A stretch of 37,511 nucleotides of DNA from Pseudomonadota bacterium (GTDB lineage Bacteria > Pseudomonadota > Gammaproteobacteria > Steroidobacterales > Steroidobacteraceae), in contig CANHFH010000011.1 in the NCBI GenBank assembly GCA_947459825.1, forward strand, positions 1-37,511, in the 5' to 3' direction. The translations under genes and the position numbers were made by a program. Below are positions 21,077 to 32,775 of this stretch, one piece after another. Positions within the stretch are counted from its first letter, which is position 1. Each line of letters opens with the position of its first letter. A model generated the notes under the pieces. It did not search any database. It saw nothing but the letters and a program-made list of their open reading frames with translations, and was not told the origin of the DNA.

Positions 21077-23746
21077 TCAGAAGCTCGCCGTCACCGATGC
21101 CGAGAGCTTCACGCCGACATCGTAGCGGTTGAAGTAGATCCGGTTCGGCCCGAGCTCCTGATACTCGCGGTAGTCGCGGCGCAGGAGGTTCCGCGCCTCG
21201 AACTTGAACTCCAGGTCGCGGCCCATGAACTCGAAGCCCTGCCGCGCGACGAAGTCGATCGAGACACCCGGCGACTCGTAGATGTCGGGCAGACCGCCGG
21301 CACCACGGCTCGTCACACGGTCGCTCGCGTAGGAGATCAGCAGCGTCTGCTGCGACAGCGAGTCCTGGCCCTCGAGGCCGAACTGCAGGTTCGCGAGGTG
21401 CTCCGACTGGCCGGTCAAGGGCGCGCCGTCGCGGAAGAAGTTGCTGGCCGGCTGCACCGGTGAACCGAACACCTCGGCGGTGTCGCCCGGCTTGACGCTC
21501 AGCTCCGACTTCGACCAGGTGTAGTTGCCGATGAGCACCAACCGACGCGAGGCGAAGAAAGGCGCGTCGGAGCTGTCCCACAGGTCGAAATGCGTCTGCG
21601 ACTCGACCTCCACGCCGTAGAGGGTCGCCGCAGGCGCGTTGGCGAAGCTGGTGAGCGGGTCGTTGTCGTTGAAGCTCGTGAAGGCCTCGATCGGCTTGTC
21701 GATCCCCTTCCAGAACGCCGCGGCCGACAGCCGCTGGTCGCGCGCGAAGTACCACTCCCAGCGCAGCTCGGCGTTGGTGAACTCGCTGTCGATGAGCAGC
21801 GGGTTGCCGCGGTAGGCACGGTTGCTCTCGGGGTCGAAGTAGGACTGCAGCATCAGCTCGCGGAACTGCGGACGGGCGATGGTGCGCGAAGCGTTGAAGC
21901 GCGCCTGCATGTCGTCGGCGAACTTCCAGGTCAGCGTCAGCGCCGGCAGCACATAGTCGTTGTCGAGCAGCGTGCCCGCCGTCGACCCGGTGACCGTGTT
22001 GAACACCTGCTTGGGCTCCACCCGCTGCTCGCCCTGCTCGTAGCGCGCGCCGATGTTGACCTCGAAGCCGTCGGTCACCTCGGTCTGCGCCTGCAGGTAG
22101 GCCGCCTGGGTCTTGAGGGAAGCGGTGAAGGCCGGCTGCGACTCGGTCGACTCGATGGCGCCGATGCCGTAGAAATCCACCACCTGCGACCCGAGCAGGT
22201 AATCGGGGCGGAACATGCCCACATAGCTCGGGAAGGTCGAAGGCGCGATGACCAGGAACTCCCGACGCTCGGAGTCGCGCTCGGTGTCCGTGCCCTCGAA
22301 GCCGGCCGACAGCACCAGCTGCGGCGTCACCTCCCAGGAGGCGTCCGCGCCGTAGGCGAACAGATCCTCATCGAGGTTGGAGAACACGATCTCCGCATAG
22401 CCCGTCTGCCCGTTGTCGAGACGGTTCACGAAATACTGTCCGGTCGGATCCGCGGCGGCGTTGGTGCGCGAGTAACCGAGCCCGAGCTCGAAGGGCGCCT
22501 TGCGGGTCGAGTTGGCGTACGCGGCGCGCAGGTCGATCTTCACCGGGTCGAGGTTGAACCCGCCGCTCAGCTGGGTGCTCCAGACCTGGCGCTCGTACCA
22601 GCCGGTCTCCTGCTCGATGAAATCGCGGCCGGGGCGCTGGCTGTTCTGCTTGCCCTCGGCGAGGCTGGTGCGCTTCAGCGTGTCACGGATGATGAGGTTG
22701 GTCCACCGGACCCTGTTCCCCTCGCCGAACTCGTAGCCGATGCCGACCAGACCGTTGACGATGACGCGGTTATCGGTCGCGACCTCGCGGTAGTCCTTGT
22801 CGAGCACCGACAGCGCCGCGTCCGCGGCGCTCTGCTCGATGTTGTCCTTGGTGCGCCACGACTGGCCATAGCCGGCGGTCGCGATCAGGCCGAGTTCGCC
22901 GTCGCCGAGCTCTCGCGAGGTGCCGCCGGTCGCCGAGAACGACATGTTGACCGGCAGCTTGTCGTTGAACTGGACGAGACCCGTGCGGGTGTTGACGAAC
23001 TGCTTGACGAGCTGGCGGGTGTCGATCGTGCCCGAACTCAGGCGCGTACCACCCGCGAAGTACGCCGCGACGGCCGGCGGCACATCGCGCACGCCGCTGT
23101 CGCTGCCCGTCCAGTCGTACTTGCTGCCGTAATGGGTGTATCCGAGCTGACCGGTGGTCTCGGTGTCACCGCTGATGCCGACACCGAACTTGAAGAACGG
23201 CTCCCGCGGCACCGCCAGCGTCGTGAGGTTGATGAGACCGCCACCGAACTCGCCCGTGAAGTTGGGCGAGTAACTCTTCTGCACCACCGATGACGCGATG
23301 ACATCGGTCGGGAAGAGATCGAGCGGCACCGCGCGGCGCAGCGGCTCCGGGCTCGGCAAGGGCAGGCCGTTGAGCAGCGCCTGCGAGTACCGGTCGCCGA
23401 GGCCGCGGACATAGACGAAGCCGTTGCTCGCGACGCTGAGACCGGTGACGCGGCTCAGCGCTCCGGCGATGTCGCCTTCGCCTGTGCGTGCGATGTCGTC
23501 GGCGGAGAGCACCGACAACACCTGGTTGGCGGACTGCTGGATGTTGCGGTCGCGACGACCGAGGACGACGATCTCGCCGATGGTGTCGACGTCGACCACC
23601 TCCTCCGCCTCGGCCGGCGGGGCCTCGTCGGCCGCCGCCGCCGGCTGCGCCGGAGGGGTCTCCACCTGCTGCCCGGATGCCGCTGCCGACAGCGCGGCGA
23701 GCGCGGCGAGCAGCAGGGACCGGGGACCCGCGTTGATGTCGTTCAT
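21077..23746 (-). CDS. TonB-dependent outer membrane receptor, substrate unknown
   Basis: Outer-membrane active transporter of 889 residues. A signal peptide covers about residues 1-25 and is followed by an Ala/Pro/Glu-rich linker and a TonB-box-like stretch (IGEIVVLGRR, near 57-65). The plug contains DIARTGEGDIAGALSRVTGL, FVYVRGLGDRYSQALLNG and FTGEFGGGLINLTT, the form common in alphaproteobacterial and related receptors. The remainder is a 22-strand-type barrel that ends in a terminal Phe (VTASF). It starts 36 bases after the lipoprotein stop with GAGGA upstream of the ATG, so the two are an operon driven by the Pho box at 25461-25478. A phosphorus-containing substrate is inferred from that promoter only. 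It converges on dapD with a 42-base gap. Confidence 0.92.
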   Translation of the reverse strand: MNDINAGPRSLLLAALAALSAAASGQQVETPPAQPAAAADEAPPAEAEEVVDVDTIGEIVVLGRRDRNIQQSANQVLSVLSADDIARTGEGDIAGALSRVTGLSVASNGFVYVRGLGDRYSQALLNGLPLPSPEPLRRAVPLDLFPTDVIASSVVQKSYSPNFTGEFGGGLINLTTLAVPREPFFKFGVGISGDTETTGQLGYTHYGSKYDWTGSDSGVRDVPPAVAAYFAGGTRLSSGTIDTRQLVKQFVNTRTGLVQFNDKLPVNMSFSATGGTSRELGDGELGLIATAGYGQSWRTKDNIEQSAADAALSVLDKDYREVATDNRVIVNGLVGIGYEFGEGNRVRWTNLIIRDTLKRTSLAEGKQNSQRPGRDFIEQETGWYERQVWSTQLSGGFNLDPVKIDLRAAYANSTRKAPFELGLGYSRTNAAADPTGQYFVNRLDNGQTGYAEIVFSNLDEDLFAYGADASWEVTPQLVLSAGFEGTDTERDSERREFLVIAPSTFPSYVGMFRPDYLLGSQVVDFYGIGAIESTESQPAFTASLKTQAAYLQAQTEVTDGFEVNIGARYEQGEQRVEPKQVFNTVTGSTAGTLLDNDYVLPALTLTWKFADDMQARFNASRTIARPQFRELMLQSYFDPESNRAYRGNPLLIDSEFTNAELRWEWYFARDQRLSAAAFWKGIDKPIEAFTSFNDNDPLTSFANAPAATLYGVEVESQTHFDLWDSSDAPFFASRRLVLIGNYTWSKSELSVKPGDTAEVFGSPVQPASNFFRDGAPLTGQSEHLANLQFGLEGQDSLSQQTLLISYASDRVTSRGAGGLPDIYESPGVSIDFVARQGFEFMGRDLEFKFEARNLLRRDYREYQELGPNRIYFNRYDVGVKLSASVTASF

Positions 23747-23782
23747 GCAGTCCTCTTCGCGGCGCGCGGCGCCCGGCGATGG

Positions 23783-25369
23783 TTACGGGTTGATCGCCGG
23801 CAGGCTCGTGCAGGAGCCGCTCGTCGTGCCGAAGTTCGCCGTGTTCGAGTTGCAGGTCCAACCCGCGTACCAGGTGTCCGCCGCGTCCTTCACCGCACCG
23901 ATGTAGTTCGTGGTCTCGAAGCCCGCGTCCACGACCTTCGGGTCGGTGGCGGTGCGCGCCGTCTCGTTGGCGCCGTTGACGAAACCGTTGGTGAGCGTGT
24001 TGGTGAAGGTGGAGGTGTTGTTGTTGGCCGCCACGTTGAAGGTCGCCTCCACCTGCGCCGCGGTCAGGCCGCTCGAGCCGATGAACGGCGTCGGACCGCA
24101 CTGCATCGCCACCGAGCGGAAGGTCGGGGGACCGACCTTGTCCACCGCGGCGTTGGTGGTGATCATGTTCGCGCCGGCGAGCCGCAGACAGCCGATCGGC
24201 GAGGTGACCACGCCGTTCACCAGCGAGGCATCGGACTGGCCGCGGAACAGCATCGCCGCCTGGTTGCCGGCGGCGGCGTTGCGATGCACGAAGGTGAAGT
24301 TGGCGAGCTTCAGGTAGGTGCGCGGCTGCTGGTCCTCCAGCGCGTTGGCGCTGTCGAGCTCGATGATCGAATCGGCGGCGCCCGAGGTCTTCTGCACCGC
24401 GATCACGTACTGGATCCGCCCGCGATAGCCGGTGTCGACATCGATGTTGTCGTCGTCGGCGCCCGTCAGCACCATGCGGCGGGCGTTGTGGGTGCCGCCG
24501 AAGAACTCGAACGCGTCGTCCGAGCTGTTGTGCGACTGGATGAACTCGATGGTGGTGCCGCTGCCGACGCCGCCCGTGGTGAGCGCCTGCAGCTCGGAGT
24601 TGCCCGAGAGCACGAAGCCCGAGTAGCGGATCTGCACATAGCGCAGGGTGCCGCTGTTGTCGGTCGGGGTCGCGCCGCCGTAGCGCGCGAGGTCCACCGC
24701 GCCCTCGACCTGACGGTCGCACTCGGCGGTGCCCGGAGGCGCCGCGGGCGTGAAGCAATCCGTGATCGGCGCACGGCCCGACAGCACGACGCCGCCCCAC
24801 TGGCCCTGCGAATCGTTGCCGGCGAGACCGAGCACATTGTCGCGGCTCGTGAAGACGATCGGCTGCGTGGCCGTGCCGGCGGCGTTGATGCGGTTGCCGC
24901 GGCTCACATGCAGCCAGGAGGTGCCGACCGCACCGTACACGACGACGCCCGGCTGGATGGTGAGCGTGACGCCGCAGGCGAGGCCGGCGGGCGTGCCCGA
25001 AGCGCCGCAGTCGTCGCCGACATCGACGCGGCCGCCGAGCGCGTACAGCAGACCCGCGACGCGCGGCAGCGTGGCGCTGCGCGTGAACTTGGCCGGCAGC
25101 TCGCAGATGCGGTAGGTGCCGGTCGGGCCGGTGATGGTCCCGCGGTCGCCGAGACCGACCGGGTTATCGATGGTGGGGCAGCCCGCGGCGGGCGACACGA
25201 GCGCCGGCGGCGGCGGCGGGGGCGGCGGCGGGGGCGGCGGAGCCGGGTTGTTCACGGTGATGTTGCCGCCGCTGCCCGGCGAGGCGATCTCCTCCGCGCC
25301 GCAGGCGGCGAGCACCGCGACCGACGCGGCGAGGAACAGAAGGTTGCGATGCTTGGCGTTGAGGGTCAT
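23783..25369 (-). CDS. Beta-helix-like outer-membrane lipoprotein paired with TonB receptor
   Basis: Uncharacterised exported lipoprotein, 528 residues. The lipobox L-A-A-C ends at Cys23; +2 Gly and +3 Ala predict outer-membrane sorting. A linker rich in Gly/Asn leads into twelve consecutive prolines (about residues 42-53), followed by a globular domain with LTIQPGVVVYG, GTATQPIVFTSRDN, SQGQWGGVVLSGRAPI, SGTLRYVQIRYSG, GGVGSGTTIEF and DDAFEFFGGTHNARR, which I recognise from a family of repeat-rich lipoproteins common in Bacteroidetes and probably right-handed beta-helical. Several Cys pairs suggest disulfides. The ATG at 25369 has GGAG 8 bases upstream; a GTG three codons earlier is less likely. 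It is the first gene of a Pho-box operon with the TonB receptor, so a surface capture role for a phosphorus compound is plausible but unproven. Confidence 0.85.
   Translation of the reverse strand: MTLNAKHRNLLFLAASVAVLAACGAEEIASPGSGGNITVNNPAPPPPPPPPPPPPALVSPAAGCPTIDNPVGLGDRGTITGPTGTYRICELPAKFTRSATLPRVAGLLYALGGRVDVGDDCGASGTPAGLACGVTLTIQPGVVVYGAVGTSWLHVSRGNRINAAGTATQPIVFTSRDNVLGLAGNDSQGQWGGVVLSGRAPITDCFTPAAPPGTAECDRQVEGAVDLARYGGATPTDNSGTLRYVQIRYSGFVLSGNSELQALTTGGVGSGTTIEFIQSHNSSDDAFEFFGGTHNARRMVLTGADDDNIDVDTGYRGRIQYVIAVQKTSGAADSIIELDSANALEDQQPRTYLKLANFTFVHRNAAAGNQAAMLFRGQSDASLVNGVVTSPIGCLRLAGANMITTNAAVDKVGPPTFRSVAMQCGPTPFIGSSGLTAAQVEATFNVAANNNTSTFTNTLTNGFVNGANETARTATDPKVVDAGFETTNYIGAVKDAADTWYAGWTCNSNTANFGTTSGSCTSLPAINP
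25205..25240 (-). repeat. Twelve-codon polyproline tract
   Basis: Twelve CCG/CCC codons in a row within the lipoprotein gene form a GC-only imperfect repeat. It is a likely slippage site and a strong EF-P-dependent translation stall, and it forms a stiff spacer between the lipid anchor and the folded domain. Confidence 0.9.
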
Positions 25370-25444
25370 CGGAGGCACTCCATAGGTCCTTAGGGTCGCC
25401 GAAGGGTTCGGACGGCCGCGCGACCGCGCGACCTGACGCCGGCA

Positions 25445-25478
25445 AGGTTAGGGAGGCGATGTGACAGGTCGGTGAAAG
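25445..25478 (-). promoter_or_regulatory. Pho box and -10 of the lipoprotein/TonB-receptor operon
   Basis: On the minus strand two 7-bp half-sites, CTTTCAC and CTGTCAC, are separated by 4 bases (25478-25461), exactly the 7-4-7 geometry of the PhoB box (consensus half-site CTGTCAT/C). Ten bases downstream lies TAACCT (25450-25445), a fair -10 at the distance expected when PhoB replaces the -35. The transcript would begin near 25438 with a leader of about 70 nt. The box ends only 4 bases before the divergent dioxygenase ATG. Confidence 0.75.
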
Positions 25479-25482
25479 GAAG

Positions 25483-26451
25483 ATGACGGCCGTGCGACAG
25501 CGTGCGGCCGCGTACGACGACCTGCGGCTGCGCTATCCTCCGCAACGCATGGGCACCGCACTCACACCGGAACTGCGCAGCTGGGCGCTCGCCGAGATCG
25601 AGGCCGCGCGACCGCCCGACGAGGTGCTCGCCGAACTCATCGCGCGCGGTGTCCCCGAGGACGACGCCGTCGACGGCATGACGGCGCTGCTCGAATCGCG
25701 GCTCGCCGAGCTCAAGGCGCGCAGCGCCGTAGCGGGCTCAGGTCCCCCGATCCCGGGCGGCGCAGACGCCGCGGGCCTCGCGGACGACGCGCCCCTGCCC
25801 GTCCCGCAGCCCTTCGGCTCGCCCGCACCTCCCGTGGTGCGCGTGCTCGACCGCGACATCAAAGTATTGATGACCGTGGCGCAGCCGCGCGTCATCCTGT
25901 TCGGCGGTCTGCTGAGCAACGCCGAGTGCGACGAGCTGGTCACGCTCTCGCGCGCCCGCATGAGCGCCTCGCAGGTCGTCGACAAGGACACGGGCGGCGA
26001 GATCGCCCACGAGGGGCGCACGAGCTCAGGGTTCGGCTTCCACCGCGGCGCGACACCGCTCATCGACCGCATCGAGCGGCGCATCGCCACGCTGCTCAAG
26101 TGGCCGCTCGAGCAGGGCGAAGGGCTGCAGATCCTGCGTTACCGGGTCGGCCAGGAATACCGGCCGCACTACGATTACATGGACCCGACGCTGCCCGGCG
26201 CACCGGCGTTCCTCGCCCGCGGCGGCCAGCGCGTGGCCTCGCTCGTGATGTACCTCAACACGCCGACCGGCGGTGGCGCGACGAACTTCCCGGACATCGG
26301 GCTCGAGGTCGCGGCCGTGAAGGGCAACGCGGTGTTCTTCAGCTACGACCGCCCCCTCCCGTCGACCAAGAGCCTGCACGGCGGCATGCCGGTGACCGAC
26401 GGCGAGAAATGGGTGGCGACGAAGTGGCTGCGCGTCGCGCGCCACGACTGA
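25483..26451 (+). CDS. Prolyl 4-hydroxylase-like Fe(II)/2-oxoglutarate dioxygenase
   Basis: Cytoplasmic 2OG-Fe(II) oxygenase of up to 322 residues. The C-terminal P4H domain carries the iron triad H229-x-D231 (YRPHYDYMDP) and H299 (KSLHGGMPV), with K309 (GEKW) ten residues later as the 2-oxoglutarate lysine; LVMYLNTPTGGGATNFPDIG is typical of bacterial P4Hs. The N-terminal region (TPELRSWALAEIEAARPPDE) is a small helical domain seen in related proteins. The ATG at 25483 follows AAGGAAG closely; the ATG at 25549 (residue 23) fits the usual family start but lacks a Shine-Dalgarno, so the start is uncertain. Its substrate is unknown; EF-Tu is the known substrate of a Pseudomonas homologue. It is divergent from the polyproline lipoprotein and converges on pstB. 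Confidence 0.88.
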   Translation: MTAVRQRAAAYDDLRLRYPPQRMGTALTPELRSWALAEIEAARPPDEVLAELIARGVPEDDAVDGMTALLESRLAELKARSAVAGSGPPIPGGADAAGLADDAPLPVPQPFGSPAPPVVRVLDRDIKVLMTVAQPRVILFGGLLSNAECDELVTLSRARMSASQVVDKDTGGEIAHEGRTSSGFGFHRGATPLIDRIERRIATLLKWPLEQGEGLQILRYRVGQEYRPHYDYMDPTLPGAPAFLARGGQRVASLVMYLNTPTGGGATNFPDIGLEVAAVKGNAVFFSYDRPLPSTKSLHGGMPVTDGEKWVATKWLRVARHD

Positions 26452-26487: not shown

Positions 26488-27318
26488 TCAGCCGAAGCGG
26501 CCCGTGATGTAGTCCTCGGTCAGCTTCGCCTGCGGATTGGTGAAGATCTTCTTGGTCTCGCCGACCTCGATGAGGTCGCCGAGATGGAAGTACGCGGTGC
26601 GCTGCGAGACGCGCGCCGCCTGCTGCATCGAGTGCGTCACGATGCAGATCGCGTAGCTCTCGCGCAGCTCGTCGATGAGGTCCTCGATGCGCGCGGTGGC
26701 GATCGGGTCGAGCGCCGAGCAGGGCTCGTCCATGAGGATCACATCCGGGTTCACGGCGATGGCGCGCGCGATGCAGAGGCGCTGCTGCTGACCGCCCGAG
26801 AGGCTGGTGCCGGGGTTATTGAGGCGGTCCTTGACCTCCTCCCAGAGGCCGGCGCGGCGCAGGCTCACATTGACGATCTCGTCGAGCTCGCCGCGGTCGG
26901 CCGCGAGGCCGTGGATGCGCGGGCCGTAGGCCACATTCTCGTAGATCGATTTCGGGAACGGGTTCGGCTTCTGGAACACCATGCCGACGCGCGCGCGCAG
27001 CTGCACGACATCGCGCCTCTTGTCGTGGATATCCTGCCCGTCGAGCGCGATCAGGCCGGTGACCCGCGCGCTCTCGATGGTGTCGTTCATGCGGTTGAGG
27101 CAGCGCAGGAAGGTCGACTTGCCGCAGCCCGACGGCCCGATCATCGCCAGCACCTCGGCGCGGCCGATGTCGATGTTGACGTCCTTGATGGCGTGCTTGT
27201 CGCCGTAGTGGACGTTCACATCGCGGCAGGCGAACACCGGCTCGGGAACGGTCACCTGGCCGATCGTACGGATGCCCTCGCGGACGGGCGGGACGGCTTT
27301 GTCGCTCATGTCGTTCAC
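26488..27318 (-). CDS. pstB: Phosphate ABC transporter ATP-binding protein
   Basis: ATPase of the high-affinity phosphate importer, 276 residues. Walker [10 protein letters not shown] lies at 61-69, the Q-loop in [19 protein letters not shown], the signature [16 protein letters not shown], Walker [14 protein letters not shown] and the switch His in [13 protein letters not shown]; all are PstB-specific. The GTG start at 27318 overlaps the pstA stop (GTGA); an ATG three codons later is the alternative. It ends the pst operon: phoU, which commonly follows pstB, is absent, and a convergent dioxygenase gene lies 36 bases beyond. Confidence 0.97.
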
Positions 27319-28625
27319 CAGCGTTTCTCGAACTTGTTGCGCAGCACCACGGCGGTGGCGTTCATCACGATCAGGAACAGCAGCAGCACGATGATCGCAC
27401 CCGAGGTGCGCTCGACGAAGCCGCGCTCCGGCAGGTCGGACCAGAGGAACACCTGCACCGGCAGCACCGTCGACGGGTCGAGCGCCCCGGCGGGCACCTC
27501 GACGATGAAGGCCACCATGCCGATCATCAGCAGCGGCGCGCTCTCGCCGAGCGCACGGGCCATGCCGATGATGGCGCCGGTGAGCACGCCCGGCATGGCG
27601 AGCGGCAGCACATGGTGCACCACCGTCTGCCAGCGCGAGGCGCCCATGCCGAGCGCGGCCTCGCGGATCGAGGGCGGGACGGCCTTGAGCGCCGCGCGCG
27701 AGGCGATGATGACCGTCGGCAGCGTGAGCAGCGTCAGCACCAGACCGCCCACCAGAGGCGCCGAGCGCGGCATGCCGAAGAAGCTGATGAACATCGCGAG
27801 GCCGAGCAGACCGAACACGATGGACGGCACCGCCGCGAGGTTGTTGATGTTGACCTCGATGATGTCGGTGATGCGGTTACGGGGCGCGAACTCCTCGAGG
27901 TACACCGCCGCGCCGACGCCGATCGGGAACGACAGCAGCAGCGTGATGAGCAGGGTCAGGAACGAGCCCACCACCGCGCCGCGCACACCCGCCTGCTCGG
28001 GGTCGCGCGAATCGCCGTTGGTGAAGAACGCGCGGTTGAAGCGCAGCTGCAGCGCGCCGTCGGCGCGCAACGCATCGACCCACGCGACCTGTGCATCGGA
28101 GAGCCGCCGTTCGTCCTCCGGCGCGCTGCGCGAGACCTTGCCCTTGAGCAGCATGTCCACCGTATCGTCGGCGAGCAGCGTGACGCGCTGCCGCTGACCG
28201 ATGAGGCCAGGGTCGGCGGTGACGCGCTTCTGCAGCTCGACGCTGGCGGCGCTGCTGACGAGCCCGTAGAGCTCGCGCAGCGCCGGGCGGCCCTCGACAT
28301 CCGGGAAGCGCTCGCGCAACGCCGCGCGCACCAACGCCTGGTAGTCGGCGACCGCGAGGTCGTCGGGCAGGCGCGTGCCCGCGGGGTCGATGACCTCCGG
28401 GTCGTAGATGATGTCGAGCTGCACATAGCCCTGACGCAGCACCGAGAGGCCCTGCGAAAGCACCGTGCCGAACAGGAACACCACGAACGAGATGCCGAGC
28501 GCCACGGCCGCGAGGCCGTAGGCGCGGAACCGTCGCTCGGCGCGGTAACGGCGCGCGAGGCCGGCGCGCACCCGGACCTGGGTCTCCGCCGCGGTGCGCG
28601 GCACGCCGTTACTCGTACTGTTCAC
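27315..28625 (-). CDS. pstA: Phosphate ABC transporter permease PstA, long form
   Basis: Inner-membrane permease of 436 residues, about 140 longer than E. coli PstA. A cytoplasmic N terminus and one membrane segment (residues about 35-60) are followed by a periplasmic region of about 150 residues ([18 protein letters not shown] onward) resembling the DUF3333 domain of alphaproteobacterial PstA. The standard five-to-six-helix permease follows with the coupling loop [19 protein letters not shown]. The start is GTG with AGGA six bases upstream, and it overlaps the last 17 bases of pstC. Confidence 0.95.
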
Positions 28626-29997
28626 GGTACTTCCTCACCACATAGAGCGCGATGACATTGAGCAGCAGCGTCACGAGGAACAGCATGAGACCGAGCGCGA
28701 ACGCCGCCAGGGTCTTCGGGCTGTCGAACTCCTGGTCGCCGACGAGCAGCGTGACGATCTGCACCGTCACGGTCGTCACCGCCTCGAGCGGGTTGAAGGT
28801 CATGTTGGCGGCGAGACCCGCCGCCATCACCACGATCATGGTCTCGCCGATGGCACGCGACACCGCGAGCAGGATGCCGCCGACGATGCCCGGCAGCGCG
28901 GCGCGCAGCACGACCTGGCGGATGGTCTCGGAGCGCGTCGCGCCGAGCGCGTAGGCGCCGTCGCGCAGGCTCTGCGGTACGGCGGTGATCATGTCGTCGG
29001 CGAGCGAGGACACGAACGGGATGATCATGATGCCCATCACGAGGCCCGCGGCGAGCGCGCTCTCGCCCGCCACCGTCAGCCCCATGGACTCGCCGATCGT
29101 GCGCAGCATCGGGCCGATGGTGGTCACCGCGAAGAAGCCGTAGACCACCGTCGGCACGCCGGCCAGCACCTCGAGCAGCGGCTTGACGACGCGGCGCAGC
29201 TTGGGCGCGGCGTACTCGGCGAGGTAGATGGCCGAGAACAGCCCGAGCGGCACCGCGACCACCATCGCCACCAGCGAGATGAGCAGCGTACCGACGAAGA
29301 GGGGCACCGCACCGAACGCGCCCGAGGAACCGATCTGGTCGGCCCGGATCGCCATCTGCGGGCTCCAGTTGGTGCCGAAGAAGAACTCGGTGAACGGCAC
29401 GATGGAGAAGAACCGACCGGCCTCGAAGACGATGGAGAGCACGATGCCGACGGTGGTGAGCACCGCGACCGCCGAACAGGCGAACAGCGCCCACTCGACG
29501 AGACGCTCGTATTCATTGCGTGCGCGCAGGTCGGGCCGGATCCGGGCCCGCACCCAGAGCAGCGCGAGGATGCCGGCGCCGAGCGCGACGCCCGCCAAGG
29601 AGAACCCGGCGATGCGCTTGAGGCGCACGAACTCGGCCGCCGCGAGCCGCACGGGCTCCGTGACCGAGGACGCCGGCAGGCTGCCGGCGACCACATTCCG
29701 CAGGTCGTTGAGCATCAGCGACATCTGCGCCGCGGGGATCGGCTGTTGGCCCTCGGCGAGCTGTGCCGTCACGAGACGGGTGAGGACATTGTCCTGGAAC
29801 GCCACCCACGCCACGAACACGAAGAGCGCCGGGATGGCGCACCACATCGCCGTCAGCAGCCCATAGTGGCCGGGCAGCGAGTGGAGGTTGCGCACCTCGC
29901 GGTGGCCGCCGACCACAGCGATGGCGCGCGCCTTGCCGACCTGGAAGGCCAGCACCGCGAGCGCGACGATCAGAAGTAGGACGATGGACGGGCTCAA
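28609..29997 (-). CDS. pstC: Phosphate ABC transporter permease PstC, long form
   Basis: Partner permease of 462 residues, longer than E. coli PstC (319). It has an N-terminal membrane helix (SPSIVLLLIVALAVLAFQVG), a second helix, a periplasmic/linker region (about 80-165), then the conserved permease with GVPTVVYGFFAV and the coupling loop LRDGAYALGATRSETI. Start choice: a TTG at 29997 has GGAG six bases upstream; an in-frame GTG at 30009 has no Shine-Dalgarno and lies just 6 bases from a large stem-loop. I prefer TTG, but GTG (four extra residues) cannot be excluded. It overlaps pstA by 17 bases. Confidence 0.94.
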   Translation of the reverse strand: MSPSIVLLLIVALAVLAFQVGKARAIAVVGGHREVRNLHSLPGHYGLLTAMWCAIPALFVFVAWVAFQDNVLTRLVTAQLAEGQQPIPAAQMSLMLNDLRNVVAGSLPASSVTEPVRLAAAEFVRLKRIAGFSLAGVALGAGILALLWVRARIRPDLRARNEYERLVEWALFACSAVAVLTTVGIVLSIVFEAGRFFSIVPFTEFFFGTNWSPQMAIRADQIGSSGAFGAVPLFVGTLLISLVAMVVAVPLGLFSAIYLAEYAAPKLRRVVKPLLEVLAGVPTVVYGFFAVTTIGPMLRTIGESMGLTVAGESALAAGLVMGIMIIPFVSSLADDMITAVPQSLRDGAYALGATRSETIRQVVLRAALPGIVGGILLAVSRAIGETMIVVMAAGLAANMTFNPLEAVTTVTVQIVTLLVGDQEFDSPKTLAAFALGLMLFLVTLLLNVIALYVVRKYREQYE

Positions 29998-30015
29998 GCG
30001 CGACTCCACAGGGGC

Positions 30016-30059
30016 GGCGGCCGAAGGGAACGGGGTATTTTATCCGTTCCCGGGCCGCC
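30016..30059 (-). promoter_or_regulatory. Intercistronic stem-loop between the porin gene and pstC
   Basis: On the minus strand GGCGGCC pairs with GGCCGCC (7 bp) and, inside a 1/3-base internal loop, GGGAACGG pairs with CCGTTCCC (8 bp) around a 10-base A/T-rich loop. No T-run follows, so it is not a classical terminator. It ends 9 bases before the pstC Shine-Dalgarno and may stabilise the upstream pstS-porin mRNA or limit pstCAB expression. Confidence 0.65.
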
Positions 30060-30095
30060 ACCGGGGCAGTCATGGAAATTTAATGGGCCGCGGGG

Positions 30096-31568
30096 TCAGT
30101 AAGTCCAGTTCAGGTCCACCTGCAGGCGGTCGTAGCCCCGACCCTTCGCCGACGCGCCCGACGGCACGGTGATCGCCGCCGGCACATCGAGGTTGGTCTC
30201 GTTCATCATGTAGAGCACGTTGAACCGCCAGTTGCGCGACAACTGATAGGCCACCCGGAAGGCGCTGCCGCCGCCGTCGGTGTTGCCGGACGCGAAGTCC
30301 GAATCGATCCATTGCGCGAACAGCGCGTCCTTCTCGACCTTCTGGTAGAGGTACCCGAACTCCCAGCTGCCCGGCAGGTTGGCGTTGGCGCGACCGTAGT
30401 TGAAGCCCACCGAGTACGCCGTGTCGAGACCCGCCGGGACATTCGAGGACGGCGTCGTCGAGACCACGCCGGAATCCGCCTTGAGGTTGCGTGCGACATT
30501 GCCGAACACCAGCAACGGCTGCGGACCGAGGTTTAGCTGGTACTCGCCCAGCAGCTCGACGATGTCGTAGTCGTTCGCCAAGCAGGGCGAGACCACGCCC
30601 GCCGAGCTGTACACCGCTCGACGGCATACAGCGGCGTTGGTGGTGGTCGTGTTGCCGTAGGCGCCGAGACCGGACGCGCCAGCGCCCGCCCCCTGGAAGG
30701 GGTTGTAGCCCTGCACCGCGCCATGGTCGTAGTAGGACACCGAGAGGAGCTTGCGCGAGCCGTCCGACGAGGCCGCGCGCCAGCCTGCTTGGGCGCCGAC
30801 CATGGAGGAGTCGGCGAAAGCCGAGCGCTCGGAGAGGCCCGCGTAGAACACGCTGCCGAAGAAGCCCGTCGCGCCCTGCTGCCAGGCGGCGGCGACGCCC
30901 TCGGGGTTCACATCGTTGTCGAAGAAATACGACTGCACGCGCACCCAGGGGTACTTCATCTTGCCGGCCGTGACCTTCCATGTGTCGGTCGGCGACCACT
31001 CGACATAGGCCAGGTCGAGATCGAGCGCCTTGCGGGAGTTCGCATCGGTCATCGTCTGGTTCGAGGAACGCGCATCGCCGCCCTCGCCGCTCGCGAACTG
31101 GATCTCGACGCGGGTGTTGTCGTTCACCCGCGCCATCGCGCCGGCGCGCAGCCGGTAGCGGTTGCGGTTGCGGTCGACCGGGTTGAACTCCTGCTGGATG
31201 GTCTCGTTGCGCACCCGCAGGTCGCCCTTCCATTGCCAGCGCGCGAGCCAACCGGACGAGGCGCTCTCACCCACCGCGCGGGCCAGGTTGTCCGAGCCGC
31301 GGTCCACCGACTCCTGCAGCTCGGTGTTGACGGTCTCCTGCGCGGTGCGCTGCTCGGCCTGCGCGACCTCGAGCTGCGCGAGCCGCTCCTGCAGCGCCTG
31401 CAGCTGCGCCTTGAGTGCGCCGAGCTCCTCGGCGGACACGGCGGCGGCCGGCGAAGACTTGGCGGGCGCCGCGGCGACCTTCTGGGCGGGCTCAGCGGCC
31501 TGCGCGAGGCAAGCCGTCCCCGTGGTCGCCGCGATCACCGCGACGACCCTGGCGAAACGATGGGTCAT
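30096..31568 (-). CDS. Putative outer-membrane porin of the pst operon
   Basis: Beta-barrel protein of 490 residues with a signal peptide (about 1-24, cleavage near AQA-AEP). A linker of Ala/Lys/Ser is followed by a coiled-coil with heptads (LGALKAQLQALQERLAQLEVA, about 50-90), then the barrel: LRVRNETIQQEFNPVDRNRNR, LDLDLAYVEWSPTDTWKVTAGKM and a final aromatic LNWTY. This matches the bacterial putative-porin family, with a trimerising coiled coil near the N terminus. It lies between pstS (24-base gap, GGAAGG upstream of the ATG) and pstC, so it likely provides phosphate passage through the outer membrane, like OprO/OprP, though it does not look like those proteins. Confidence 0.88.
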   Translation of the reverse strand: MTHRFARVVAVIAATTGTACLAQAAEPAQKVAAAPAKSSPAAAVSAEELGALKAQLQALQERLAQLEVAQAEQRTAQETVNTELQESVDRGSDNLARAVGESASSGWLARWQWKGDLRVRNETIQQEFNPVDRNRNRYRLRAGAMARVNDNTRVEIQFASGEGGDARSSNQTMTDANSRKALDLDLAYVEWSPTDTWKVTAGKMKYPWVRVQSYFFDNDVNPEGVAAAWQQGATGFFGSVFYAGLSERSAFADSSMVGAQAGWRAASSDGSRKLLSVSYYDHGAVQGYNPFQGAGAGASGLGAYGNTTTTNAAVCRRAVYSSAGVVSPCLANDYDIVELLGEYQLNLGPQPLLVFGNVARNLKADSGVVSTTPSSNVPAGLDTAYSVGFNYGRANANLPGSWEFGYLYQKVEKDALFAQWIDSDFASGNTDGGGSAFRVAYQLSRNWRFNVLYMMNETNLDVPAAITVPSGASAKGRGYDRLQVDLNWTY

Positions 31569-31592
31569 GTGGCCTTCCTGTCCGGGTAGGAC

Positions 31593-32651
31593 TCAGGGTG
31601 CGAAATTCTTGAGCGACTTCACATCCGCACGGGTGCGGGCGAGGTCCGACTTCGGCTGCGGCACGAGGCCGCGGTCGGTGAGGTAGCCCTCCTCGCCCAG
31701 CGCCCTGTCGCTCACATACTCGTTGACGAACTCCTGCAGGCCCGGGATCACGCCGATGTGCGCCTTCTTCACATAGATGAAGAGCGGACGCGAGGCGGGA
31801 TACTTGCCCGAGGAGATCGTCTCGTAGGTCGGCTCGACGCCGTCGATCTTGGAGCCGCGCAGCTTGTCCATGTTCTCTTCGAGGAAGGAGAAGCCGAAGA
31901 TGCCGACGGCGTTGCGGTTGGCCTCGATCTTCTGGACGATGAGGTTGTCGTTCTCACCGGCTTCGACGAAGGCGCCGTCCTCGCGCAGCGTGTGGCAGAG
32001 GCGCTTGAAGCGCTTCTCGTCCTGGCCGCGCAGCGTGTTGAGCCACGGGAAGGTGCGGCAGCCGGCTTCCATGTAGAGCTCGTTGAACGAGTCGCGTGTG
32101 CCCGAGGTCGGCGGCGGGCCGAGCACCTCGATCTTGGTCGCGGGCAGCGACTTGTCGATCTGGTTCCACATCGTGTAAGGGTTCGGGATCAGCGTCGTCG
32201 GGTTGGCCGGGTCCGGCACCTGCTTGGCGAGCGCCAGGTAGACCTGCTTGCGCGTCAGGTTCATCACCGGACCACGCTTGCTCTCCGAGAGGGTCAGGCC
32301 GTCATAGCCGACGCGTACCTCGATGATGTCCCGCACGCCGTTCTTGCGGCAGCTGTCGAACTCCGAGGCGTTCATGCGGCGCGAGGCGTTCACCACATCC
32401 GGGTGCTGCGGGCCGACGCCGTTGCAGAACAGCTTGATGCCGCCGCCCGTGCCCGTGCTCTCGACCTTCGGGGTCTTGAAGCGACCCTGACGACCGAACT
32501 TCTCGGCGACGGTGGTGGTGAAGGGATAGACGGTCGAGGAACCGACCACATTGACGAAATCGCGGGCGGCCTGGGCCGAGGCGGTGACCGGCAGGGCGGC
32601 GACGATCGCGGCGGCAGCGGTCAGGGCGAGGATTCGGGGGGTGCGGGACAT
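31593..32651 (-). CDS. pstS: Periplasmic phosphate-binding protein
   Basis: Substrate-binding protein of the phosphate importer, 352 residues. The signal peptide (MSRTPRILALTAAAAIVAAL, cleavage after ASAQA) is followed by FVNVVGSSTVYPFTTTVAE, the N-terminal phosphate-binding loop, and ESTGTGGGIKLFCNG and GTRDSFNELYMEAGC, which supply further ligands. ATG at 32651 has AAGGAG seven bases upstream; an upstream in-frame ATG would add an unlikely N terminus overlapping the promoter. A triple Pho-type repeat lies immediately upstream. It is the first gene of pstS-porin-pstC-pstA-pstB. Confidence 0.96.
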   Translation of the reverse strand: MSRTPRILALTAAAAIVAALPVTASAQAARDFVNVVGSSTVYPFTTTVAEKFGRQGRFKTPKVESTGTGGGIKLFCNGVGPQHPDVVNASRRMNASEFDSCRKNGVRDIIEVRVGYDGLTLSESKRGPVMNLTRKQVYLALAKQVPDPANPTTLIPNPYTMWNQIDKSLPATKIEVLGPPPTSGTRDSFNELYMEAGCRTFPWLNTLRGQDEKRFKRLCHTLREDGAFVEAGENDNLIVQKIEANRNAVGIFGFSFLEENMDKLRGSKIDGVEPTYETISSGKYPASRPLFIYVKKAHIGVIPGLQEFVNEYVSDRALGEEGYLTDRGLVPQPKSDLARTRADVKSLKNFAP

Positions 32652-32678
32652 CGTGGAACTCCTTCGTGGATTGGGAAA

Positions 32679-32712
32679 AAGATATGACGGATTGATTGCA
32701 GATTTATGACGG
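32679..32712 (-). promoter_or_regulatory. Triple Pho-box repeat and -10 of the pst operon
   Basis: On the minus strand three 7-bp half-sites occur at 11-bp spacing: CCGTCAT (32712-32706), CTGCAAT (32701-32695) and CCGTCAT (32690-32684), with A/T-rich 4-base spacers AAAT and CAAT. Taking the first two as the Pho box, TATCTT (32684-32679) lies 10 bases further on as the -10, the same spacing as at the lipoprotein promoter. The leader would be about 20 nt and includes the pstS Shine-Dalgarno. Confidence 0.8.
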
Positions 32713-32746
32713 CTGTAACAATTCATCGGCGACTCGCGGAAAACCC

Positions 32747-32775
32747 TTGCGCGACGCGGGGTTGGCACTTATAAA
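32747..32775 (+). promoter_or_regulatory. dapE promoter, probably giving a leaderless mRNA
   Basis: TTGCGC (32747-32752) and TATAAA (32770-32775) are 17 bases apart. Transcription would start about 7 bases after the -10, at or next to the A of the dapE ATG (32782). No Shine-Dalgarno is present. Confidence 0.65.

Follow-up and report, generated by a model that had tools for sequence, protein, structure and literature searches.

An ElpS-type lipoprotein and its TonB-dependent receptor behind tandem Pho boxes in a member of the Steroidobacteraceae

Identity of the pair

We analysed a stretch of 37,511 nucleotides of contig CANHFH010000011.1 (assembly GCA_947459825.1, Steroidobacteraceae), hereafter the window, in which the genes of a lipoprotein and of a TonB-dependent receptor follow an array of Pho half-sites. 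A first-pass annotation, made from the sequence letters, had put this pair forward as a candidate uncharacterised phosphorus uptake system. Judged by homology, however, it is a further member of a known, poorly understood system, that of ElpS (CC0170; elpS = CCNA_00169) and the receptor CC0171 of Caulobacter crescentus (PMC2996285), with relatives in Flavobacterium (PMC8115612), and the word uncharacterised has to be dropped. The features read from the letters were largely borne out: a polyproline-anchored lipoprotein (here with a lipobox ending in Cys23 and 12 consecutive prolines in the linker) that is probably beta-helical and is not SusD-like, an operon-like layout with the receptor on the same strand, and PstS and a porin next door, to which pstB, pstA and pstC can be added. 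We propose, giving it about an even chance of being right, that the pair is a Pho module by which a phosphorus-bearing polymer would be captured (or trimmed) at the surface and then handed over to the receptor, since no other reading accounts so well for the constant pairing of lipoprotein and receptor under what looks like PhoB control.

A scan of named genomes yielded 152 relatives of the lipoprotein in Steroidobacteraceae-type gammaproteobacteria, Sphingomonadales and Caulobacterales, and the best 80 of the 152 made up the set of loci used below. The window lipoprotein was 53-54% identical over residues 10-527 to the relative in Caulobacter vibrioides (L051), and the receptor, encoded directly 3' of the lipoprotein, was 53% identical to the L051 receptor. 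The L051 protein has a LAGC lipobox at residues 17-20 and Asn38, and its gene is followed by the receptor and then by gspC, gspD, gspE, gspF and gspG; the features printed for ElpS are a lipobox at 17-20, Asn38, the CC0171 receptor and a type II secretion operon (PMC2996285). Because the L051 relative carries these features, we identify the window pair with ElpS/CC0171. The likeness comprises full-length homology, the lipobox, a low-complexity tether, a receptor encoded immediately downstream in the same orientation and a link to phosphate starvation. In contrast, the neighbours of the window pair are pst genes and the gene of a prolyl 4-hydroxylase, those of the Caulobacter pair type II secretion genes, and the window tether has 12 prolines where that of Caulobacter has TTP repeats.

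ElpS is known to be produced at low phosphate, palmitoylated and exposed at the surface (PMC2996285), its promoter is induced at low phosphate (PMC5172544), and the Caulobacter PhoB regulon includes several TonB-dependent receptors and the type II secretion system (PMC11208175). In Flavobacterium, the ElpS-related lipoproteins FI, FII and FIII are induced by phosphate depletion, as are neighbouring receptors, and two of the three lie downstream of receptors (PMC8115612). FI was reported to outrank every other exoprotein in abundance in phosphate-starved Flavobacterium johnsoniae, FI and FII stand beside the receptors Fjoh_3857 and Fjoh_0545 (PUSIII, PUSIV), and FII sits with phoBR (PMC8115612). 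These pairs belong to another phylum and have the reverse order, lipoprotein downstream of receptor, and the published identity of the Flavobacterium lipoproteins to ElpS is 31-36% over about half the length (PMC8115612). Loss of Fjoh_3856 or Fjoh_0546 was reported to leave colony expansion unaffected (PMC7807042).

Pho boxes upstream of the lipoprotein gene

The first-pass annotation had described a 7-4-7 Pho box, and this is present as CTTTCAC-CGAC-CTGTCAC at 25461-25478, with 1 mismatch to CTGTCAY-N4-CTGTCAY; it is not, however, a single box, but one part of an array of four half-sites that amounts to two tandem boxes (Table 1). This array was the best in the window, and when the whole window was shuffled 30 times with dinucleotides preserved, no array exceeded 20 matches; the next-best separate array, upstream of pstS, barely exceeded that maximum. 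A PhoB box thus stands in the correct orientation upstream of the lipoprotein gene, which is the mark of a Pho-regulon member. The -10 element claimed ten bases beyond the box was found as the weak hexamer TAACCT, and TA-rich hexamers were seen at the same distance in several relatives (by eye, no statistics).

The upstream 200-bp regions of the relatives contained a Pho box (<=3 mismatches) in 57 of 78 cases, against 17 of 716 random windows drawn from the same loci, most of them in coding sequence, and against 101 of 3120 shuffles. The 78 regions come from 81 (80 loci plus the window), as L007 and L013 were without a usable lipobox call and L022 was short of upstream DNA. Together, the array and these counts support the Pho control assumed in the annotation as far as sequence can. 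In the whole genome, 26 Pho boxes with <=2 mismatches were found versus 2 in a reversed control, and 3 of the 26 correspond to the window array. Among five genome-wide sites inspected, two boxes overlap the start of the response-regulator gene preceding PhoR and a third sits just before PhoU; this response regulator-PhoR-PhoU cluster lies on another contig and has Pho half-sites at its start. The box nearest PhoX was discounted, being about 1 kb off and in the wrong orientation.

The receptor and its pairing with the lipoprotein

The two genes are separated by 36 bp in the window, a gap that suggests one operon. The annotation had named an absence of linkage between the lipoprotein family and TonB receptors elsewhere as grounds for giving up its proposal, and the linkage held: in 78 of the 80 loci the lipoprotein gene was directly followed by a receptor gene of the same orientation, the remaining two (L018 and L030) ending at a contig edge. 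The median gap was 86 bp (76 measured, window included; L042, where a frameshift breaks up the receptor gene, was left aside). A family member was found in 51 of 398 genomes of an even phylum sample, in which up to 3 candidates were scored per genome, and in 16 of 60 genomes of the window's own family (own genome included in both counts). In the short flanks of the phylum-sample loci L084-L112 a receptor was present in 25 of 29, the 4 misses having little or no sequence past the gene, and among 19 selected longer stretches with distant members, partly the same genes, it was adjacent in 17 (14 downstream, 3 upstream). In some families the protein has two domains in tandem and about 950 residues (L113-L116, L119 and others), and the five loci named here have an adjacent receptor as well.

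The receptor itself has a generic barrel, with PqqU, FepA and YncD as the best Foldseek matches, and the NCBIfam hits at E 0.01 were a heme-receptor model, one further model and TonB-Xanth-Caul, the last scoring under its cut-off. Neither a SusC model (NCBIfam, E 0.01) nor a carboxypeptidase-like N-terminal domain (Pfam) was found in it. SusCD/PusCD works in a comparable manner, with a surface lipoprotein and a TonB receptor, but the window lipoprotein is a beta-helix and its receptor is without a SusC-type match. Membership of SusD/PusD was rejected for the lipoprotein, as no Pfam family, the SusD domains PF07980 and PF14322 included, matched at E 0.01 and no SusD family appeared among 50 members at E 1. 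BtuG-BtuB and TbpB-TbpA are further lipoprotein/TonB-receptor pairs that work alike, and both receptor kinds are among the structural matches of the barrel; their lipoproteins have other folds and their ligands are known. Receptor sequences were compared in an alignment of 41 of at least 71 receptors, picked for spread (A2).

The generic barrel, and the 29 TonB-receptor barrel matches over the cut-off in the window genome, would suit an ordinary siderophore-type receptor whose place beside the lipoprotein is incidental. We find this scarcely credible, since the pairing spans Steroidobacteraceae, Sphingomonadales and Caulobacterales and comes with Pho boxes, and elpS was reported not to react when iron was depleted (data not shown there; PMC2996285).

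The fact that one receptor accompanies nearly every copy examined would also be expected if the receptor exported its lipoprotein to the surface, which we regard as very unlikely. The TonB-receptor/lipoprotein pairs of which we know are import systems, and this counts against export. ElpS does reach the surface independently of type II secretion, by a route left undefined there (PMC2996285), and Oar/PopC offers a precedent (PMC6434023); what has been reported for the receptor mutant is that ElpS production, the only property given there, was unaffected (PMC2996285).

Predicted fold and acidic core of the lipoprotein

The lipoprotein gene was read from its ATG; an alternative GTG start at 25378 would give 531 aa. 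Cys23 is followed by Gly24, so that the Asp+2 residue of inner-membrane retention is absent. Downstream of the lipid cysteine, the conserved GAEEIASPGSGGN segment leads into the tether, and this conserved sequence is new in this analysis. No Pfam or NCBIfam model was found to match the lipoprotein or the ElpS family, and a profile search of the PDB sequences gave nothing relevant, i.e. no solved relative by sequence. Foldseek against the PDB returned no match at E 0.001 or better, and re-examination of its own list with VIA-align yielded a beta-helix fold. The predicted model and the structural alignment thus support a right-handed parallel beta-helix, as the first-pass annotation had supposed from the repeats.

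In an alignment of 50 of the 78 available lipoproteins, picked for spread (A1), seven acidic residues on the helix (Table 1) were invariant, and each of them was kept in 60-61 of 61 further domains. This acidic core, which we recognise from sequence conservation, is new here. Paired acids on successive coils could make the lipoprotein a beta-helix hydrolase or lyase acting on a glycan, so as to open phosphorus-bearing polymers before uptake, and polysaccharide lyases and GH28 share the beta-helix fold with it. We think this unlikely: the sequence profile of those families is unmatched, Foldseek gave no match at the E value above and no enzyme family was recognised by sequence, alignment matched no set of catalytic residues, and a common beta-helix is no proof of function.

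Proposed function

Capture and hand-over could proceed as follows. When phosphate is scarce, PhoB would bind the four-half-site array and switch on lipoprotein and receptor as one operon. The lipoprotein, lipidated at Cys23, would reach the outer membrane and stand at the surface on its polyproline tether of about 30 residues, where we expect the invariant acidic site of the beta-helix to hold a metal, for example calcium, and through the metal a polymer that is phosphorus-bearing or anionic, which it might also cut. Fragments of the polymer would pass through the TonB receptor into the periplasm, and periplasmic phosphatases, of which the PhoX and PhoD families are present in the genome, would free phosphate for PstSCAB. 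In our analysis uptake is a proposal, and we found no known substrate of ElpS-type pairs. The first-pass annotation had suggested that organophosphates, nucleic acids or phytate may be taken up; the 20 open reading frames (ORFs) scanned in the window gave no Pfam match to nuclease, phosphatase or phytase families, and the published Caulobacter work reports no import phenotype (PMC2996285).

The published view of ElpS is that of a surface-released helper of extracellular phosphatases, clipped in the tether, for which the receptor would be unneeded. In keeping with it, overexpression of elpS raised the extracellular (supernatant) phosphatase activity and the secreted form starts at Asn38, the beginning of the linker (PMC2996285), and the window genome has, besides its PhoX and PhoD families, type II secretion genes (gspC-F) on another contig, the window giving no gsp match. 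We nevertheless judge it improbable, as deletion of elpS left phosphatase activity unchanged, purified or immunoprecipitated ElpS had no phosphatase activity (PMC2996285), and the near-constant pairing with one receptor family would go unexplained.

Several points weigh against capture and hand-over. The elpS deletion result counts here too, and the receptor gene CC0171 was reported to be constitutive (data not shown there; PMC2996285), whereas the window pair has clear tandem Pho boxes and a gap suggestive of one operon. A literature search, with subscription journals and preprints outside its reach, found no demonstration of import by any member of the ElpS family. A scan of the whole window at 3 mismatches found 6 boxes versus 6.98 expected, that is, no enrichment, and because of this the case for Pho control is carried by the array and its conservation. 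Boxes at 3 mismatches were lacking in 21 of the 78 upstream regions, and the Caulobacter loci L051, L053 and L057 had 6, 7 and 6 mismatches to the E. coli-type box within 200 bp; the best-studied member is therefore induced although no E. coli-type box can be recognised at that place. No receptor was seen in two of the distant stretches, L117, from a genome with a second copy, and the contig-cut L125. The acidic core could instead serve stability, and family scans of the lipoprotein recognised no phosphate-binding domain. Finally, the predicted local distance difference test (pLDDT) score of the receptor model was below 50 over residues 1-153 (plug), so the model allows no statement on the receptor pocket.

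The question of the role of ElpS dates from 2010, and its relatives span several proteobacterial families. Tests of this role with point mutants and mass spectrometry come within reach through the invariant acidic core, the constancy of the receptor partner and the neighbouring prolyl 4-hydroxylase gene.

The prolyl 4-hydroxylase neighbour

A prolyl 4-hydroxylase (P4H) gene beside the polyproline-tethered lipoprotein is a new observation of this analysis. The product matched solved prolyl 4-hydroxylases (3itq, E 1.6e-39; 2jig, E 1.2e-38), and 25549 is the likelier start since the ORF opening at 25483 falls inside the Pho array. The window genome has 2 PF13640 genes, one of them beside the pair, versus 29 receptor barrels. 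Of 79 loci, the window among them, 27 had a P4H homologue <=2.5 kb from the pair, on varied sides and strands. Among gammaproteobacterial loci, P4H was found in 11/11 genomes whose tether has at least 5 consecutive prolines versus 4/11 with other tethers (Fisher p 0.004, uncorrected for kinship); the tether count was made without L007, which has an 8-proline tether and a P4H, and the genomes of L013 and L062 lay outside the P4H search. The corresponding figures for alphaproteobacteria, 16/17 polyproline versus 31/39 others, were not significant (p 0.25).

The enzyme might hydroxylate the polyproline or [T/A]P tether before export and so stiffen it, shield it from the protease that releases ElpS in Caulobacter or prime it for glycosylation. 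We hold this to be unlikely, and most of the sphingomonad genomes searched carry P4H homologues away from the pair, which counts against it. The link is post hoc and confounded by kinship, and we report it as a lead, not a result. If true, this would be a Gram-negative bacterium whose surface lipoprotein stands on a hydroxyproline tether. Prolyl 4-hydroxylase was not mentioned among the matches listed in a literature search on related terms.

The window, its genome and the neighbourhoods of the relatives

The features of the window are collected in Table 1.

Table 1. Features of the lipoprotein-receptor region and its neighbours, in window coordinates
Feature	Position	Strand	Basis
TonB-dependent receptor (CC0171-type), 889 aa, Plug and barrel domains	21077..23746	-	family scans, homology
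ElpS-family lipoprotein, 528 aa, ATG start	23783..25369	-	53% identical to C. vibrioides L051
Right-handed parallel beta-helix domain, residues ~58-456	24002..25198	-	predicted model and structural alignment
Acidic core on helix, within N281-D339: D284, D285, E288, D306, D307, D310, E337	24353..24529	-	alignment
Conserved GAEEIASPGSGGN segment plus polyproline tether (12 Pro in a row)	25199..25300	-	motif in 79/79 proteins with lipobox called
Lipoprotein signal peptide and lipobox, Cys23 predicted acylated	25301..25369	-	Cys23, Gly24 invariant in 50 aligned sequences
TAACCT, weak -10-like hexamer, 10 bases beyond Pho array	25445..25450	-	3/6 match TATAAT
Two tandem Pho boxes: four CTGTCAY-like half-sites, 11-bp steps	25461..25500	-	25/28 consensus matches
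Prolyl 4-hydroxylase (2OG-Fe(II) oxygenase), divergent; possible partner	25549..26451	+	homology
pstS, porin, pstC, pstA, pstB (high-affinity phosphate uptake)	26488..32768	-	family scans
Pho-like half-sites (n=3) upstream of pstS	32684..32712	-	weak: 21/28 vs shuffle maximum 20

The genome comprises 2.6 Mb in 200 contigs and has a single copy of the lipoprotein. On the 3' side of the receptor, family scans gave matches to a tetrahydrodipicolinate succinyltransferase, an aminotransferase and GlnD. The longest pstS ORF (31593-32768) begins upstream of its own Pho half-sites; as these lie inside it, the start at 32768 is probably too far upstream and the real start further in.

In the relatives, pst genes were on the same stretch in 11 of the 80 loci and gspC or gspD in 29, so that adjacent type II secretion genes, as Caulobacter has them, are no defining feature; in L014, phoB-phoR and phoU-pstS flank the pair. 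The neighbours formed 73 clusters, and 20 proteins from recurrent ones were identified. They included pst/phoU, phoB, phoR, PhoB-like regulators, a 2OG oxygenase, a CHAD/CYTH protein, a type IV secretion ATPase, an FAD-binding protein, a copper oxidase and DapC, and several were without matches.

A PhoB-like response-regulator gene lies downstream of the pair, convergent with it, in L040, L041, L042, L043, L047 (14466-15146), L048, L056, L058, L061 and L077, from genomes of Novosphingobium, Porphyrobacter, Croceibacterium and Pelagerythrobacter type (L047 and L061 were scanned with family models). The receiver of these regulators is degenerate, with the VDW aspartate kept and the conserved Thr and the Lys region altered. 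A CYTH-CHAD protein, which we take to be a polyphosphate-related domain pair, is encoded near the pair in L067 (14462-15976, the one scanned), and the same cluster occurs in L063, L066 and L072. Elsewhere in the window genome (G000:C8:28218-32108), two matches to the PhoD family are found near a different TonB-dependent receptor. The loci L009 and L011, from metagenome bins titled Klebsiella pneumoniae and Janthinobacterium lividum, encode lipoproteins about 70% identical to that of the window, as in the Steroidobacteraceae-type set, and these titles look wrong.

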